A stretch of 64,000 nucleotides of DNA from contig CANNAM010000004.1 of the NCBI GenBank assembly GCA_947502595.1, forward strand, positions 1 to 64,000. The letters run 5' to 3'. Of the stretch, positions 55,564-62,138 are shown piece by piece. Source of the DNA: an uncultured Marinicella sp. GTDB lineage: Bacteria > Pseudomonadota > Gammaproteobacteria > Xanthomonadales > Marinicellaceae. The number at the start of each line of letters is the position of its first letter. The stretch's first letter is position 1. The notes below the pieces were generated by a model, which worked only from the letters and a program-made list of their open reading frames with translations, made no database searches and was not told where the DNA came from. The position numbers were made by a program, and so were the translations under genes.

Positions 55564-56016
55564 TTAATCTAAAACCCGCACAGACTGCCAGTAATTATCA
55601 TGCCAATAGGTATTGGCCAGCGATGAAATAATGACCCCTTTTGAGGTTGAGGCATGTAAAAACTTGTTATCTTCAAGGTATATGCCGACATGATATAACT
55701 TGCCTTGTTTGGGTATTTTAAAAAACAGCAAATCACCAGCCCGTAAATGCCCCTGTTTAACTTTTGTTGGTAACCGCGCTTGCGCCCTGGTGGTGCGTGG
55801 TAATTGAAGTCCAAGTATTTCATTGAAAGTCAATTGTACAAAGCCAGAACAATCAACGCCTTGTCGGCTCATACCACCCAGTTGATAAGGGGTGCCTTGC
55901 CATTGCGCATGTTGTTGATACAGTTGTGTCAATAATGTATTTGAGTCGTTGGACTTCACCGAATGACCACAACTAAAAGTCATCAAAACCAACAGCATTA
56001 ATATGGCGTGTTTCAT
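55564..56016 (-). CDS. NlpC/P60 family lipoprotein peptidase (Spr/MepS-like)
   Basis: A 150-residue lipoprotein from the ATG at 56016, with lipobox TFSC (C16). The NlpC/P60 domain has the catalytic Cys in GVDCSGFV (C56) and His in YHVGIYL (H109), with H121 (FLHAS) as the polar third residue. These enzymes cut peptide crosslinks in peptidoglycan. A longer open frame to 56139 runs through the his promoter and is not used. It is divergent from the his operon. Confidence 0.88.
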   Translation of the reverse strand: MKHAILMLLVLMTFSCGHSVKSNDSNTLLTQLYQQHAQWQGTPYQLGGMSRQGVDCSGFVQLTFNEILGLQLPRTTRAQARLPTKVKQGHLRAGDLLFFKIPKQGKLYHVGIYLEDNKFLHASTSKGVIISSLANTYWHDNYWQSVRVLD

Positions 56017-56095
56017 AACAGCATTATATACCACTGTTGGTGGTGCTTTGTGCTTGGGAAAAAAGATCGGAATACCAAGCGTGCAAAAAAAACCG

Positions 56096-56124
56096 TTGAC
56101 ATTTATTTTTAAGCTGTCTAACAT
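56096..56124 (+). promoter_or_regulatory. Predicted sigma-70 promoter of the his operon
   Basis: TTGACA at 56096-56101 is a perfect -35. TAACAT at 56119-56124 is a 4/6 -10 at the ideal 17-bp spacing. Transcription should start near 56130-56132, at or 1-2 nt before the ATG of leader 1, which would make that leader ORF leaderless. Confidence 0.7.
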
Positions 56125-56131
56125 GCACCAC

Positions 56132-56191
56132 ATGAACACAGTATTTGCACATGTCCATCACCATACGTTAATCGACAACGGGGTGGCTTAG
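56132..56191 (+). CDS. hisL: His leader peptide 1 (attenuator)
   Basis: A 19-residue leader ORF, MNTVFAHVHHHTLIDNGVA, with four His in 6 codons including a CAT-CAC-CAT run at 56156-56164. An ATG at 56123 would add Met-His-His but overlaps the predicted -10. The His codons form the 5' side of a stem, CACC (56159-56162) and CGTT (56166-56169), pairing with AACG (56177-56180) and GGTG (56182-56185). If ribosomes stall at His codons, AACGGGG (56177-56183) is freed to pair with CCCCGTT (56220-56226) of the terminator. This is classic attenuation logic. No Shine-Dalgarno is visible. Confidence 0.82.
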   Translation: MNTVFAHVHHHTLIDNGVA

Positions 56192-56214
56192 TGCCAATGT
56201 AAAAAAATTTTATT

Positions 56215-56249
56215 AAAAGCCCCGTTTGACCAAACGGGGCTTTTTTTTT
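56215..56249 (+). terminator. His attenuator terminator 1
   Basis: A 9-bp stem, GCCCCGTTT (56219-56227) with AAACGGGGC (56232-56240), loop GACC, preceded by AAAA and followed by nine T. It starts 27 nt after leader 1. The second terminator 150 bp on shares 23 identical bases with it (56229-56251 and 56378-56400). Confidence 0.93.
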
Positions 56250-56280
56250 GGGTAAATTTTTAAACCAATAACTTAATTAC

Positions 56281-56334
56281 ATGAATACATATACACCAGC
56301 AGCTGTACACCATCACATGACCGACATATTCTGA
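56281..56334 (+). CDS. His leader peptide 2 (attenuator)
   Basis: A 17-residue ORF, MNTYTPAAVHHHMTDIF, with a CAC-CAT-CAC run at 56308-56316. Its ATG is exactly 149 nt after that of leader 1, and both peptides begin MNT and carry VHHH. An 8-bp stem ACCAGCAG (56295-56302) with CTGCTGGT (56341-56348) spans the His codons. The enclosed ACGGCGC (56334-56340) can pair 6 of 7 with GCCCCGT (56369-56375) of terminator 2, so a stalled ribosome could favour antitermination. No Shine-Dalgarno is seen; upstream is A/T-rich. Confidence 0.78.
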   Translation: MNTYTPAAVHHHMTDIF

Positions 56335-56366
56335 CGGCGCCTGCTGGTATTTGCACTTTACACACG

Positions 56367-56398
56367 AAGCCCCGTCAACCAAACGGGGCTTTTTTTTT
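56367..56398 (+). terminator. His attenuator terminator 2
   Basis: GCCCCGT (56369-56375) with ACGGGGC (56383-56389), loop of seven, then nine T. It lies 33 nt after leader 2 and about 45 nt before hisG, so hisG transcription must pass both terminators. Confidence 0.93.
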
Positions 56399-56443
56399 GG
56401 CCTGTATTCAGGGCCCGAACAAACAACCACAAACGAGTACAAT

Positions 56444-57292
56444 ATGAAAATTAAAATGGCCATCCCCAAAGGGAAACTACAAATTGAAATACTTAAATTA
56501 CTGTCTGATATCGGCATTGATATCATGGGTGATGAACGCAATTACCGCCCCAACTGTTCCGATGACAGGTTTGAAATTAAGCTGTTGAAAGGGCAAAACA
56601 TCCCTTCATTGGTTGAATTGGGGCAACATGACATTGGTTTTGCTGGTTTGGATTGGATTGCAGAACAAAATGCAGATGTGGCCATCATCAAACCCTTGGG
56701 CTTTAATCCAGTACAGATTGTTGCCTGTATTCCAGAGCAGTGGGACTATGCAAGTTTGAAGCAGCGCAAAATCATTGTGGCCACCGAATACATGAACTTG
56801 GCGCAACAATTTTTGGATAACAATGGTTTTGATGCGCAATTGATTCGCTCATACGGTGCCACCGAAGTGTTCCCGCCTGAAGACGCCGATATGGTGATTG
56901 ATAACACCAGTACTGGCAGCACCATCAAGGCCAATCGCCTGAAAATTTGCGCTGAGGTTTACCGCAGTGCCACGCAGTTTTTTGCCAATAAAGCGGCCTT
57001 GCAAGACCCGCAGAAAAAAGCCGTGATTGATGACATGTTGTTACTCATCAATGGCGTAATGAATGCCCGCCAAAGGGTGTTGCTGGAAATGAATTGCCTG
57101 AGTGATGACATTGAAAAAATCGTGGCCTTACTGCCGGCCATGCGGTCACCGACAGTCAGTCAATTATTCAACTCAGACGCTTACTCAGTGCGTGCCGCGA
57201 TTCCTGCCAAGGCGGCCACGGCGTTGATTCCCAAATTAATCCAAGCCGGTGCCTCAGACATCCTTGAATTGCCCATCAGGAAAGTTGTCTGA
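56444..57292 (+). CDS. hisG: ATP phosphoribosyltransferase, long form
   Basis: A 282-residue enzyme joining ATP and PRPP, the committed step of histidine synthesis. IAIPKG-type start (MKIKMAIPKGKL), GFAGLDWIAE, and the PRPP site DMVIDNTSTGSTIKANRL are present. The length and C-terminal domain (LLEMNCLSDDIEKIVALLPAMRSPTV onward) mark the long HisG with its own histidine-binding ACT-like domain, so no HisZ is needed. The ATG at 56444 follows terminator 2; longer in-frame versions pass through it. It is the first enzyme of the operon. Confidence 0.95.
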   Translation: MKIKMAIPKGKLQIEILKLLSDIGIDIMGDERNYRPNCSDDRFEIKLLKGQNIPSLVELGQHDIGFAGLDWIAEQNADVAIIKPLGFNPVQIVACIPEQWDYASLKQRKIIVATEYMNLAQQFLDNNGFDAQLIRSYGATEVFPPEDADMVIDNTSTGSTIKANRLKICAEVYRSATQFFANKAALQDPQKKAVIDDMLLLINGVMNARQRVLLEMNCLSDDIEKIVALLPAMRSPTVSQLFNSDAYSVRAAIPAKAATALIPKLIQAGASDILELPIRKVV

Positions 57293-57295
57293 ACC

Positions 57296-58951
57296 ATGAA
57301 CAAGACTGAACTTAAACTGGACTTCAATGAACGGGCAGACTCTCAACCGGCTTGGCTGCAGTCCTTCCAACTACAAACGCAAGCCTTGTGGCGTTACCCA
57401 GATCGAAGTGCCTTAGAAAATCGTATGGCCAATGACTTGGGTTTAGCTGAAGGTGCTGTACTGTTAACCAATGGCGGTGATGAAAGCATCGAACTGCTGT
57501 ATAAAAACTGTAAACTCAATGCCGAATCATTGTTGGTGCCAGAACCCTGTTTCAGCCAATACACCCACAACCAAGTGGTTTGGCAGAATGACACCATTTT
57601 CACTGCTGCCACAGCCGATTTGTCGATTGATGTGGGGGCACTGAAAGCCAATTTGCGCGCCAAACAGTGGTTGATTCTGACCCGCCCGAACAACCCCACT
57701 GGTGAGTATTTGCCAGTAGCTGTATTGGAGGAACTCATCGAAATGGCGGCCGCCAAAGGGGCTTGGGTGTTTTTGGATGAGGCTTATGTGGAGTTTGCCA
57801 ATGCTGCTGAAACCATTGATTACACCGCGTACCCCAACTTAATCACTTTGAGGACTTTCTCCAAGGCGTTTGGTTTGGCCGGTGCGCGCATCGGTTATAT
57901 TTTTGGCCAAGCTGAATTGGTGGCAAAGTTCAGGCAACTGGCGATGCCATTCAATGTATCGAATGTCAATTTACAGCTGGCCACTGCTGCATGGCAAGCC
58001 CGCGGTGAAATCAGCCCATACTGTCAACGCATCGCTGATAACCGAGCGGTGGTGGCACAGCTGTTGAGTGACCAAGGTTTAGCACCCTACCCAAGTCGTG
58101 GCAATTTTTTGCTGTTTGAAACCAGTGCCGAGAAAAAAGTCTTGTGGGCACGGGTGATGGCTAAATACGGTATCCAAATCAAAACTGAATTGGCCGGTTT
58201 GCCCGCTGCAGTGCGGTTGACCATCCCGGCAGACATCAGTAAGTTCAGTCAGGTCATGCAGTTGATTTTGCAGCCGCAATTACTGGCTTTTGATATGGAT
58301 GGGGTGTTGATAGATACGGCCATGAGCTACGACCAATGTATCAAACGAACTGTGCAGCAATTAACTGGTCAAAACATCAGCCAAACGGATGTTGAGGCGG
58401 TCAGGGCACGTGGTGGCTTCAACAATGATTGGGTGCTGAGTGCTGAATTAATTGCCAATCAAGGGGTTGCAGTGAGCTTTGAGCAAGTGGTTGAAACTTT
58501 TCAAAAACTGTACAACGGTGATGCTGAAACAGCTGGTTTGGTTGAACAAGAAAAGCAGCTGTTGAGCAACTCATTACAACAACAGGTGTTCGACCCTGAC
58601 AGTCCATACTGCACCGCGGTTGTGACAGGGCGACCACGGGCAGAAGCGGAGCATGGCGTGGAAAAACTGCAAATCAAACCTGATTTCATCATCAGTGCCG
58701 ATGATGTCAGCCAACAAAAACCTGACCCAGAAGGCTTGCTGGCAGTGATTGAAGCCAGTTCGCAACAGTTCGGTCAAGGTTTGCGAGCCTGGTTTTGTGG
58801 TGACACCGTTGATGACATGCAAGCGGGCAGACAAGCCGGCTGTGTTTGTATCGGAATTGGTGCAACAACGCCTGAAGCCGTAGATAATTTATACCAAGCA
58901 GGGGCCGATATAGTCCTTGATAACATCAACCAATTAGAGGCTTTGTTATGA
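57296..58951 (+). CDS. hisC: HisC-HAD fusion: histidinol-phosphate aminotransferase plus HAD phosphatase
   Basis: A 551-residue two-domain protein. Residues 1 to about 325 are HisC: LTNGGDESIELL, TRPNNPTGEY, LDEAYVEFA and PLP lysine K190 in TFSKAFGLAGARIGY. Residues about 329-551 are a HAD hydrolase: nucleophile D333 and acid/base D335 in FDMDGVLIDT, T444 in VVTGRP, K475 in QQKPDPEG, and the Mg-binding GDTVDDM (D503, D506, D507). A cap lies between motifs I and II. Since hisB here lacks the phosphatase half found in enteric HisB, this domain is the best candidate for histidinol-phosphate phosphatase, next to the enzyme that makes its substrate. The function is inferred; the fusion is plain. 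Confidence 0.9.
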   Translation: MNKTELKLDFNERADSQPAWLQSFQLQTQALWRYPDRSALENRMANDLGLAEGAVLLTNGGDESIELLYKNCKLNAESLLVPEPCFSQYTHNQVVWQNDTIFTAATADLSIDVGALKANLRAKQWLILTRPNNPTGEYLPVAVLEELIEMAAAKGAWVFLDEAYVEFANAAETIDYTAYPNLITLRTFSKAFGLAGARIGYIFGQAELVAKFRQLAMPFNVSNVNLQLATAAWQARGEISPYCQRIADNRAVVAQLLSDQGLAPYPSRGNFLLFETSAEKKVLWARVMAKYGIQIKTELAGLPAAVRLTIPADISKFSQVMQLILQPQLLAFDMDGVLIDTAMSYDQCIKRTVQQLTGQNISQTDVEAVRARGGFNNDWVLSAELIANQGVAVSFEQVVETFQKLYNGDAETAGLVEQEKQLLSNSLQQQVFDPDSPYCTAVVTGRPRAEAEHGVEKLQIKPDFIISADDVSQQKPDPEGLLAVIEASSQQFGQGLRAWFCGDTVDDMQAGRQAGCVCIGIGATTPEAVDNLYQAGADIVLDNINQLEALL

Positions 58952-60110: not shown

Positions 60111-60909
60111 CACCACAGGCAATTCAAAACCAGCCTATCAATCTGATTTGTGTGCGCGCATCATTCCATGTCTGGATGTGGCCAATGGGCGGGTGGTCAA
60201 AGGCACCAATTTCAAACAGTTACTTGATATGGGTGACCCAGTTGAGTTGGCCAAAATGTATGAGCTGCAAGGTGCCGATGAACTGGTTTTTTTAGACATC
60301 AAAGCATCTGTGGATGGACAGCAATCAGCCCTGGATATGGTTAACCAAGTGGCCCGACATTTATCGATTCCTTTTGCTGTGGGAGGTGGCATCAAAAGCT
60401 TGGAAGATGTGCACAAATTTTTTCATGCCGGTGCCGATAAAGTGACTTTGAACACCATGGCCGTCGAACAGCCTGAACTGATCAACCAAATAGCCAATCA
60501 ATACGGTTCACAAAGTATCGTGGTGGCAGTGGATGTCAACCAAGAAGATGATGGTTCTTTGGCCATTTATACCCACGGCGGCTCGCAGCGAGCGACCGTT
60601 AATTATCACCAATGGCTGGCTGAACTGGTGGATCGTGGCGCAGGAGAGGTGTTGCTTACTGCAATGCACAAAGATGGTACAGGCAGTGGTTTTGATACCC
60701 AACTTCTGGCACAATTCGGCGCTGAGTTTCCAGTGCAGGTGATTGCTTCAGGTGGGGCAAATGGCCCAGAGGATTTTTTAGCCGCGATTGAAGCAGGTGC
60801 TGACGCTGTATTGGCTGCAGGTATTTTTCACCGTGGTGAGTATACGGTAGGACAAATCAAATCGTATTTAATTAAACACAACATTAAAATCAGGAACCCA
60901 GGATGTTAA
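60097..60909 (+). CDS. hisF: Imidazole glycerol phosphate synthase, cyclase subunit
   Basis: A 270-residue TIM barrel that closes the imidazole ring with HisH. Catalytic acids are D27 (IIPCLDVANG) and D146 (VVAVDVNQEDDG), offset by 16 from the classical D11 and D130, so this start has about 16 extra residues. A TTG at 60148 would give the usual length, but the ATG at 60097 is kept. hisA-IE follows with a 7-nt overlap. HisF before HisA reverses the common proteobacterial order. Confidence 0.95.
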   Translation: MYVNDTTGNSKPAYQSDLCARIIPCLDVANGRVVKGTNFKQLLDMGDPVELAKMYELQGADELVFLDIKASVDGQQSALDMVNQVARHLSIPFAVGGGIKSLEDVHKFFHAGADKVTLNTMAVEQPELINQIANQYGSQSIVVAVDVNQEDDGSLAIYTHGGSQRATVNYHQWLAELVDRGAGEVLLTAMHKDGTGSGFDTQLLAQFGAEFPVQVIASGGANGPEDFLAAIEAGADAVLAAGIFHRGEYTVGQIKSYLIKHNIKIRNPGC

Positions 60910-62138
60910 TACCAAGTATAGATCTGATGGGCGGAAAAGCCGTTCAATTACAACAAGGCGATAAAAAAATCATCGAACGCGAAGATGTGTTTGAGTTATT
61001 GGAAGCATTTTCTTTGTATGGTGAAGTGGCCATCATTGACTTGGATGCTGCCATGGGCCAAGGTTCTAATCAGGATTTGATTGAACAGATGTTGCGCAAA
61101 CGTCCTTGTCGTGTCGGTGGCGGTATTCGAGACCTTGAAACGGCGAGAGGGTACTTGGCGGCAGGTGCGACAAAAATTATTTTAGGCACATCGGCGACCG
61201 AAGATTGGGTCAAACAGTTGCCCAGGCAGGCGTTGATTTTTGCCATTGATGCCAAGGATGACTATTTAACCACTCATGGCTGGCAGAAAACCCAAGCAGT
61301 TAAGGTGTTGGATATCATCAGCGACTGGGCGCAGTATTGTGGCGAATTCCTGTACACCCAAGTGAAAAAAGAAGGCATGCTGCAAGGCATTGATGAGGCG
61401 CGCATCAGTGCGGTTATTAAGGCCTCGCCGATTCCTGTTACAGTGGCTGGTGGCATCAGCAGTTATGCAGATTTACAATGGATCCACAAGCGTGGCGCCA
61501 ATTCTCAGATTGGTATGGCCATTTACGCAGGACAGATGTCATTGACTTCGGCCTTTATGTCGTTGGTGGATTTCGATAAAATGGCAATGATTCCAACGGT
61601 GGTACAAGATGCCAAAACCCACAAAGTACTGATGCTGGCTTATTCAACTGAAGCCTCCCTTGAACAGGCTTTAAACAGCCGAACGGGCACTTATTTTTCG
61701 CGCTCACGTCAGCAATTGTGGACCAAAGGCGAAACCAGTAATAACACCCAAAAATTGGTGCAAGTTGATATCGACTGTGATGGTGACACTTTATTATTTT
61801 TGGTGGAACAACAAAATAATGCCTGCCATTTTGACCGTTATTCCTGTTTTTCCAGTCAAACTAAAAACTATTCCTTGGATTACTTGGATGAAATTTTCAC
61901 CCAACGCATGAACACCACAGAAGGCCAGTCATTCACGCAAAAACTTTTTGCCAGTGAAGCTTTACAGATTGAAAAGCTCAAAGAAGAATGTGATGAGCTG
62001 ATCGAAGCCACTGAACACAATCACGTGCGTTGGGAAGCCGCTGATTTGTTGTTTTTTACGCTGGTGATGGCCAAAGCCAAAGGGGTGAGTTTTGGAGAAA
62101 TTATCAATGATTTGCGGAGTCGCAACAATGAAAGGTAA
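60903..62138 (+). CDS. hisA: HisA-HisI-HisE fusion: three consecutive histidine steps on one chain
   Basis: A 411-residue protein with three domains. Residues 1 to about 221 are HisA (isomerase): D7 in IPSIDLMGG, D116 in FAIDAKDD and T152 in LYTQVKKEG. About 222-320 is HisI (PR-AMP cyclohydrolase): GTYFSRSRQQLWTKGETSNN, metal-binding DCDGD and Cys in ACHFDRYSC. About 325-411 is HisE (PR-ATP pyrophosphatase): LKEECDELIEA and VRWEAADLLFFTLV. HisIE fusions are common; joining HisA in front is unusual. The three catalyse steps 4, 3 and 2, in reverse order along the chain. The HisA part is about 20 residues shorter than usual. Confidence 0.93.
   Translation: MLIPSIDLMGGKAVQLQQGDKKIIEREDVFELLEAFSLYGEVAIIDLDAAMGQGSNQDLIEQMLRKRPCRVGGGIRDLETARGYLAAGATKIILGTSATEDWVKQLPRQALIFAIDAKDDYLTTHGWQKTQAVKVLDIISDWAQYCGEFLYTQVKKEGMLQGIDEARISAVIKASPIPVTVAGGISSYADLQWIHKRGANSQIGMAIYAGQMSLTSAFMSLVDFDKMAMIPTVVQDAKTHKVLMLAYSTEASLEQALNSRTGTYFSRSRQQLWTKGETSNNTQKLVQVDIDCDGDTLLFLVEQQNNACHFDRYSCFSSQTKNYSLDYLDEIFTQRMNTTEGQSFTQKLFASEALQIEKLKEECDELIEATEHNHVRWEAADLLFFTLVMAKAKGVSFGEIINDLRSRNNER

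Follow-up and report, generated by a model that had tools for sequence, protein, structure and literature searches.

Two histidine leader-terminator units in series ahead of hisG in Marinicella form a predicted double attenuator

We have examined the region upstream of the histidine biosynthesis operon in a 64,000-nucleotide stretch of DNA from an uncultured Marinicella sp. (hereafter the window) and in the corresponding regions of related genomes. Two short His-rich ORFs lie directly ahead of the cognate his operon, each carrying three consecutive His codons, with a fourth His close by in ORF1, and in each unit a predicted intrinsic terminator follows the leader ORF, ahead of hisG. The order read from the sequence is ORF1, terminator 1, ORF2, terminator 2, hisG. 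An earlier reading of the same DNA, the original prediction, had described two His-run ORFs, each with its own intrinsic terminator downstream, and all four elements were found. The features are as follows.

56096..56124, forward strand: sigma-70-type promoter, TTGACA-17-TAACAT, the end of the -10 box lying 7 nt before the ORF1 ATG
56132..56191, forward strand: leader ORF1, MNTVFAHVHHHTLIDNGVA, probably leaderless, the ATG being placed at or next to +1
56177..56183, forward strand: unit 1 antiterminator arm r2, AACGGGG, within the final ORF1 codons
56215..56249 including the T-run, forward strand: predicted unit 1 intrinsic terminator (hairpin 56215-56244; r3 56219-56226, r4 56233-56240)
56281..56334, forward strand: leader ORF2, MNTYTPAAVHHHMTDIF, lacking a conserved promoter and, by eye, a clear Shine-Dalgarno sequence
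56294..56302, forward strand: unit 2 protecting arm, predicted to pair with 56341-56348 in the no-ribosome state
56333..56340, forward strand: unit 2 antiterminator arm r2, GACGGCGC, overlapping the stop codon, with one C.C mismatch to r3
56366..56398 including the T-run, forward strand: predicted unit 2 intrinsic terminator (hairpin 56366-56392; r3 56369-56376, r4 56383-56389)
56444..57292, forward strand: hisG, first gene of the regulated his operon, which runs to 63351

An extra in-frame ATG of ORF1 is present at 56123, within the -10 box. An alternative stem capable of breaking each terminator had been proposed, and its arms are present in both units: AACGGGG (56177-56183) pairs with CCCCGTT (56220-56226) in unit 1, while in unit 2 GACGGCGC (56333-56340) and GCCCCGTC (56369-56376) are paired at 7 of 8 positions. 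A scan of 55800-56700 detected three terminator-like sites, terminators 1 and 2 among them, where 0.9 are expected. An HHH run in a short ORF (≤50 aa) is not unusual on its own, occurring at three further places in the window; the leaders stand above chance because they are paired with terminators, are placed before hisG and occur as two units in 26 other genomes.

Downstream, the operon order is hisG, hisC-HAD, hisB, hisH, hisF, hisA-hisIE and hisD. The HisC protein (57296-58951) carries a fused C-terminal HAD phosphatase domain, and the order hisG, hisC-HAD fusion, hisB was observed in 12 of 12 related loci checked, including Kangiellaceae and an Acidobacteria MAG. This HAD domain may be the source of the histidinol-phosphatase step, because the separate HisB matched the dehydratase family only. 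HisA, HisI and HisE domains are joined in one 411-aa fusion protein (60903-62138).

Conservation was investigated in 71 non-redundant hisG upstream regions (25, L001-L025, plus 46 retained after removal of 23 duplicates), a unit being scored as an ORF of ≤60 aa with at least 3 His and a terminator-like hairpin within 110 nt downstream. Partial matches (L026, L100) and members of other families of the order with distant HisG (L027-L030) were left out, and no hisG match was obtained in 3 of the 61 genomes of the first relative search. HisG identity to the window is 74-90% in named Marinicella, 66-72% in the sister genus (73% over a fragment) and about 54-64% in Kangiellaceae and allies. Two leader-terminator units were detected in 27 regions, one in 43 and none in one, so that the suggested search of related genomes for His leaders before hisG recovered both the tandem layout and conserved His runs, with 3-6 His codons per leader ORF in both units of the 27 tandem genomes. 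The tandem layout occurs in 12 of 17 regions of the window's genus, 2 of 9 of the sister genus and all 13 of the clade containing named Kangiella species. Pleionea and Aliikangiella regions examined have one unit each. In this scoring L093 was placed in the sister genus by matching coordinates, L023, also of the sister genus, is cut by a contig end and counts as single though an upstream terminator tail is visible, and L078 and L080 were scored single on scattered His only. At the level of sequence, the tandem arrangement is real and conserved. Named Marinicella and Kangiella strains contribute 11 of the 27 tandem regions, which makes testing practical in both genera.

For comparison outside this group, hisG upstream regions were taken from another gammaproteobacterial order (hisG in 70/79 genomes per search, best 30 loci each), whose leaders resemble E. 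coli hisL. Among the 37 distinct regions from these best loci, 35 have one unit, one has none and one, L122, was rejected as a false double, as its first ORF has scattered His with the terminator 110 nt away. Six loci in which hisG was not located (L116, L119, L140, L150, L152, L155) were dropped and repeats were counted once.

In a quick HisG tree of 61 rows, built without ten distant ones (L083-L090, L094, L095), the unit-number label requires 6 changes versus 20 in shuffles. Single-unit species lie among tandem ones (L005/L007, L010, L014/L016 and most of the sister genus), a scatter which, within the window's genus, fits repeated loss. In L010, the sequence after the lone terminator scores 30.5 against the sequence following terminator 2 of its sister L009 and 2.0 against that following terminator 1, as would be expected of a deletion between two similar terminators. 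A unit can therefore be lost, and both observations lend some weight to a reading in which one unit is the working His sensor and the other a decaying relic whose terminator just lowers expression. However, both His ORFs and both terminators are kept in 27 genomes of differing sequence, including 13 of 13 in the Kangiella clade, and the fold test described below recovers an antiterminator in 53 of the 54 units, making a relic unlikely.

Several neighbouring observations concern other regulatory elements. A single His-rich ORF followed by a terminator-like hairpin precedes hisG outside Proteobacteria in L084-L089 (Melainabacteria/Cyanobacteria and other MAGs), and likewise in L094-L095 (Spirochaetes MAGs) and in L081 and L091 (Acidobacteria/Holophagae MAGs). 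In L027 and L028, the gene directly before hisG encodes a YerC/YecD-type TrpR-related protein (NCBIfam), and by eye L029 and L030 resemble these two upstream of hisG; a repressor-for-attenuator swap is possible. In Kangiella aquimarina, a TwoAYGGAY RNA match lies on the minus strand of L058:1335-1472 (44.9 bits, cut-off 43).

The ORF1 and ORF2 ATGs are 149 nt apart in the window and an identical 23-mer is repeated at the same distance (56229-56251 and 56378-56400), both exactly as originally reported. The 23-mer has only these 2 matches in the window at ≤3 mismatches, with 0.01 expected. The accompanying claim that leader and terminator had been copied together as a 149-bp unit did not stand as a recent event. 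Outside the 23-mer, in-register identity at offset 149 is 35%, whereas other offsets average 26.5% (sd 4.0), and 4 of 129 offsets reach an identity as high; terminator 2 is TACGGGGT, not AACGGGGC, in six close relatives (L002, L003, L004, L006, L008, L009); and ATG-to-ATG spacing ranges from 130 to 194 nt across the 27 tandem genomes. These three observations speak against a recent 149-bp duplication, while an old duplication is a possible origin of the two units. Comparison of Kangiella and Marinicella units gave mean local scores of 20.0 and 18.3 in register and 18.1 and 16.6 out of register, which weakly suggests that each unit shares ancestry with its like-numbered counterpart; a single origin is not claimed.

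Promoter position differs markedly between the two units. Of the tandem loci, 24 of 26 have a -10 box whose end lies 6-8 nt upstream of the first leader ATG, as do 27 of 31 loci with one unit, and the leader promoters have a TTGACA-like box with a spacer of 16-18 nt in the large majority. With the -10 box this close to the first ATG, the leader 1 AUG would lie at or next to +1 and this leader is probably leaderless, a finding towards which the start-codon choice leans, as it favoured a high promoter score and, slightly, a 7-nt distance. No conserved promoter was detected before unit 2 across the tandem loci, a -10 box at 5-9 nt from the ATG occurring in 4 of 26 as against 24 of 26 for unit 1, and mean promoter scores are 9.5 for unit 1 and 7.0 for unit 2 (L004 unit 1 and L068 unit 2 proved unscorable and were left out). 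This distribution bears on the alternative that there are two promoters, each with its own attenuator, such that unit 2 would act on a separate, shorter transcript and not as a second step. In the window a TAACTT does lie 6 nt before the ORF2 ATG, similar by eye to the TAACAT before ORF1, but with the low score and unconserved distance at unit 2 this arrangement is very unlikely, and a second promoter before ORF2 was rejected as a candidate because its position is not conserved across tandem loci. The conserved promoter at unit 1 and the lack of one at unit 2 would thus place the two units in series, and the sequence layout fits both being carried on one transcript and responding to the same amino acid.

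Folding was predicted for each unit transcribed up to the terminator 3' arm (r4), with a ribosome masked on either the second His codon or the stop codon, using a main footprint of 12 nt and repeats at 10 and 14 nt. With the ribosome on His or at the stop codon, respectively, median capture of r3 by the upstream arm was 0.98 and 0.02 in unit 1 and 0.83 and 0.12 in unit 2. At 12 nt, predicted capture with the ribosome on His was higher by more than 0.3 in all 27 unit 1 sequences and in 26 of the 27 unit 2 sequences; the corresponding counts were 27/27 and 26/27 at 10 nt and 27/27 and 25/27 at 14 nt. The proposed check of folding with the His stretch masked therefore bore out antiterminator capture in both units: in 53 of 54 the predicted antiterminator is favoured by a ribosome on His and blocked by one at the stop, the exception being L068 unit 2, which shows no stall-dependent switch in this test. 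Spacer shuffling is a permissive control. In 18 unit 1 and 20 unit 2 sequences, out of 27 each, no more than 3 of 60 shuffles reached the capture observed, leaving 9 and 7, respectively, in which more did; the window units were reached by 7/60 and 8/60 shuffles, and L019 and L068 unit 2 by 20 and 19.

In the finished transcript, by contrast, the terminator is predicted to form at 0.77-1.00 in all 54 units, irrespective of ribosome state, so that any switch must be kinetic. In window unit 1, capture is 0.79-0.89 with the ribosome anywhere from the start codon to His (12-nt footprint), so specificity would rest on His as the waiting point. Capture falls below 0.5 once the ribosome is past the last His by 1-3 codons in unit 1 and 3-5 codons in unit 2, depending on footprint. 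A stem over the His codons had also been predicted, and this was upheld for one unit only. Unit 2 has a predicted protecting hairpin using the stretch just upstream of the His codons, and capture with no ribosome is 0.26; unit 1 has little protection, capture being 0.85, and without a strong protecting hairpin it would read through when no ribosome is present.

That terminators form at equilibrium whatever the ribosome position, and that HHH short ORFs occur at three other window places, could be taken to indicate translation-independent termination, by small-RNA-making or protein-controlled terminators, with the His runs incidental. We regard this as extremely unlikely. Two His ORFs before the same his gene in 27 genomes are hard to explain otherwise, though the units were selected for His ORFs, and the antiterminator arm is positioned to be covered by a ribosome at the stop codon and left free by one on His.

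Pairing between the arms was also examined by covariation, with r2 anchored by sequence alone as the first CGG after the His run and its flank compared with the flank of terminator arm r3. The sample comprised 44 distinct rows from 76 anchored units, 9 of 85 units not being anchorable. With relatedness ignored, own r2-r3 pairing exceeded all 5000 permutations when one or two positions were considered, all but 1 at three positions and all but 3 at four. The common states are AA-CGG with CCG-TT, mostly in Marinicella unit 1, and GG-CGG with CCG-CC, in Kangiella unit 1. Judged by eye, most unit 2 arms and several Kangiella unit 1 arms fail to pair with r3 at one position (T.C or C.C), and the same holds for most of the single arms in Pleionea, in Aliikangiella and in the sister genus. 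We infer that the GGTG of these mismatched arms must also pair with His codons (CACC) in the protecting hairpin.

Combined, the anatomy, conservation, covariation and stall-dependent predicted fold, all derived from sequence analysis, suggest with a probability of roughly 0.8 that the region is a double, same-signal, ribosome-mediated transcription attenuator in which termination would be multiplied. RNA polymerase would start at about 56131-56132 and a first ribosome would load at the RNA 5' end, on the AUG of ORF1, this leader being taken as leaderless. With charged His-tRNA, the ribosome would reach the stop codon and cover r2, allowing terminator 1 to form, while a ribosome stalled on the His codons would permit r2 to capture r3 before r4 exists and the polymerase to pass. 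A second ribosome, translating ORF2, would repeat the same test at terminator 2, and full-length his mRNA would require escape at both. As escape is needed at both sites, basal leak and expression would each be obtained by multiplying two probabilities, and log-sensitivity to His-tRNA charging by adding two sensitivities. A simple race model, given three His codons in each unit and chosen polymerase parameters, has the series double the sensitivity to codon rate, from -2.27 to -4.53 at 4 codons per second. From this model the steeper or AND-like response to charged tRNA-His expected from the outset should follow as arithmetic, and the tandem arrangement should keep the his genes quieter with ample histidine and give a sharper switch-on when it is short. 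Theory for single attenuators is treated in passages of PMC1183508. With a conserved same-signal leader pair and natural single-unit relatives, the effect of stacking on leak and steepness is directly testable, and as ORF1 is probably leaderless the two units may differ in ribosome recruitment.

The units may not act separately in Marinicella. Antitermination at unit 1 would free the 3' arm of terminator 1, ACGGGGC, to capture the 5' arm of terminator 2 and so disarm terminator 2, leaving unit 2 as a proofreader which would mainly catch polymerases leaked past terminator 1 without a true stall. By computed stability the helix between these arms exceeds the unit 2 antiterminator in all 14 Marinicella and sister-genus tandem genomes, with a margin of only 0.1 kcal/mol in four (L011, L012, L013, L018), and in 0 of 13 Kangiella. 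The unit 1 arm is changed in L003 and L006 without a matching change in unit 2, which counts against such cross-talk, and we consider it an unlikely addition to the double attenuator.

In the textbook case of attenuation there is one leader per operon. The closest his-operon counterpart we take to be hisL of E. coli and Salmonella (RF00514), in which, as here, a His-run leader peptide, a terminator and a competing antiterminator precede hisG; the window differs in having two units in series and a first ORF that would lie at the RNA 5' end. Unit 1 reaches 31 bits where the Rfam RF00514 His_leader cut-off is 49 bits, unit 2 is not among the matches listed for the family, and no match at cut-off was found in the window or in 16 related loci. 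As a survey tool this model was set aside as too insensitive, with matches in 7 of the 369 class genomes at E 0.001, 2 of them above cut-off. No T-box match at gathering score was obtained in the window, and the list of 51 matches to 55950-56500 at E ≤10 contains no T-box. T-boxes sense tRNA directly, whereas here that role would fall to the translating ribosome. In Firmicutes, double or tandem T-boxes nevertheless provide repeated same-amino-acid sensors before one operon, for which a sharper response is suggested in the passage concerned (PMC9413887).

Other systems share individual elements with the double attenuator, as far as the relevant passages describe them. The Salmonella mgtCBR leader contains two ORF-based attenuators, but these sense ATP and proline through stem-loops unlike intrinsic terminators, while both units here look His-specific with their own terminator each (PMC3641672). 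In the mefA/msrD double-lock, two attenuators are said to limit basal expression; unlike the window, it senses macrolides and its second attenuator lies inside the operon, controlling msrD alone (PMC10314930). The rimP leader has a second terminator in tandem, with a possible antiterminator, and the passage describing it names no amino-acid leader ORFs, unlike the leaders of the window (PMC2965389). Sinorhizobium meliloti trpL is described as a single Trp unit with a leaderless leader-peptide ORF that starts at the RNA 5' end, as ORF1 would (PMC7298713). Two same-amino-acid leader-peptide attenuators in series are not described among the matches listed by our literature search, most subscription papers lying outside it, and this search returned no paper pairing Marinicella with an attenuator or Kangiella with a leader peptide.

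Upstream regions of other amino-acid operons were read in the same genome, omitting L164 and L172; leuA gave a sub-cut-off match only (L164). A leader with terminator was absent from the 330 nt upstream of the ilvB (L165), two trpE-family (L166, L167) and pheA (L168) matches and of two aspartate-kinase matches (L170, L171). A further aspartate-kinase (thrA-like) gene, L169, is preceded by a single leader rich in Thr and Ile, MLDTIITSTTTAYKLCVMC, and a terminator; a -10-like TATATT lies 6 nt upstream of the leader ATG. Leaderless attenuator leaders in this genus may therefore not be confined to his.
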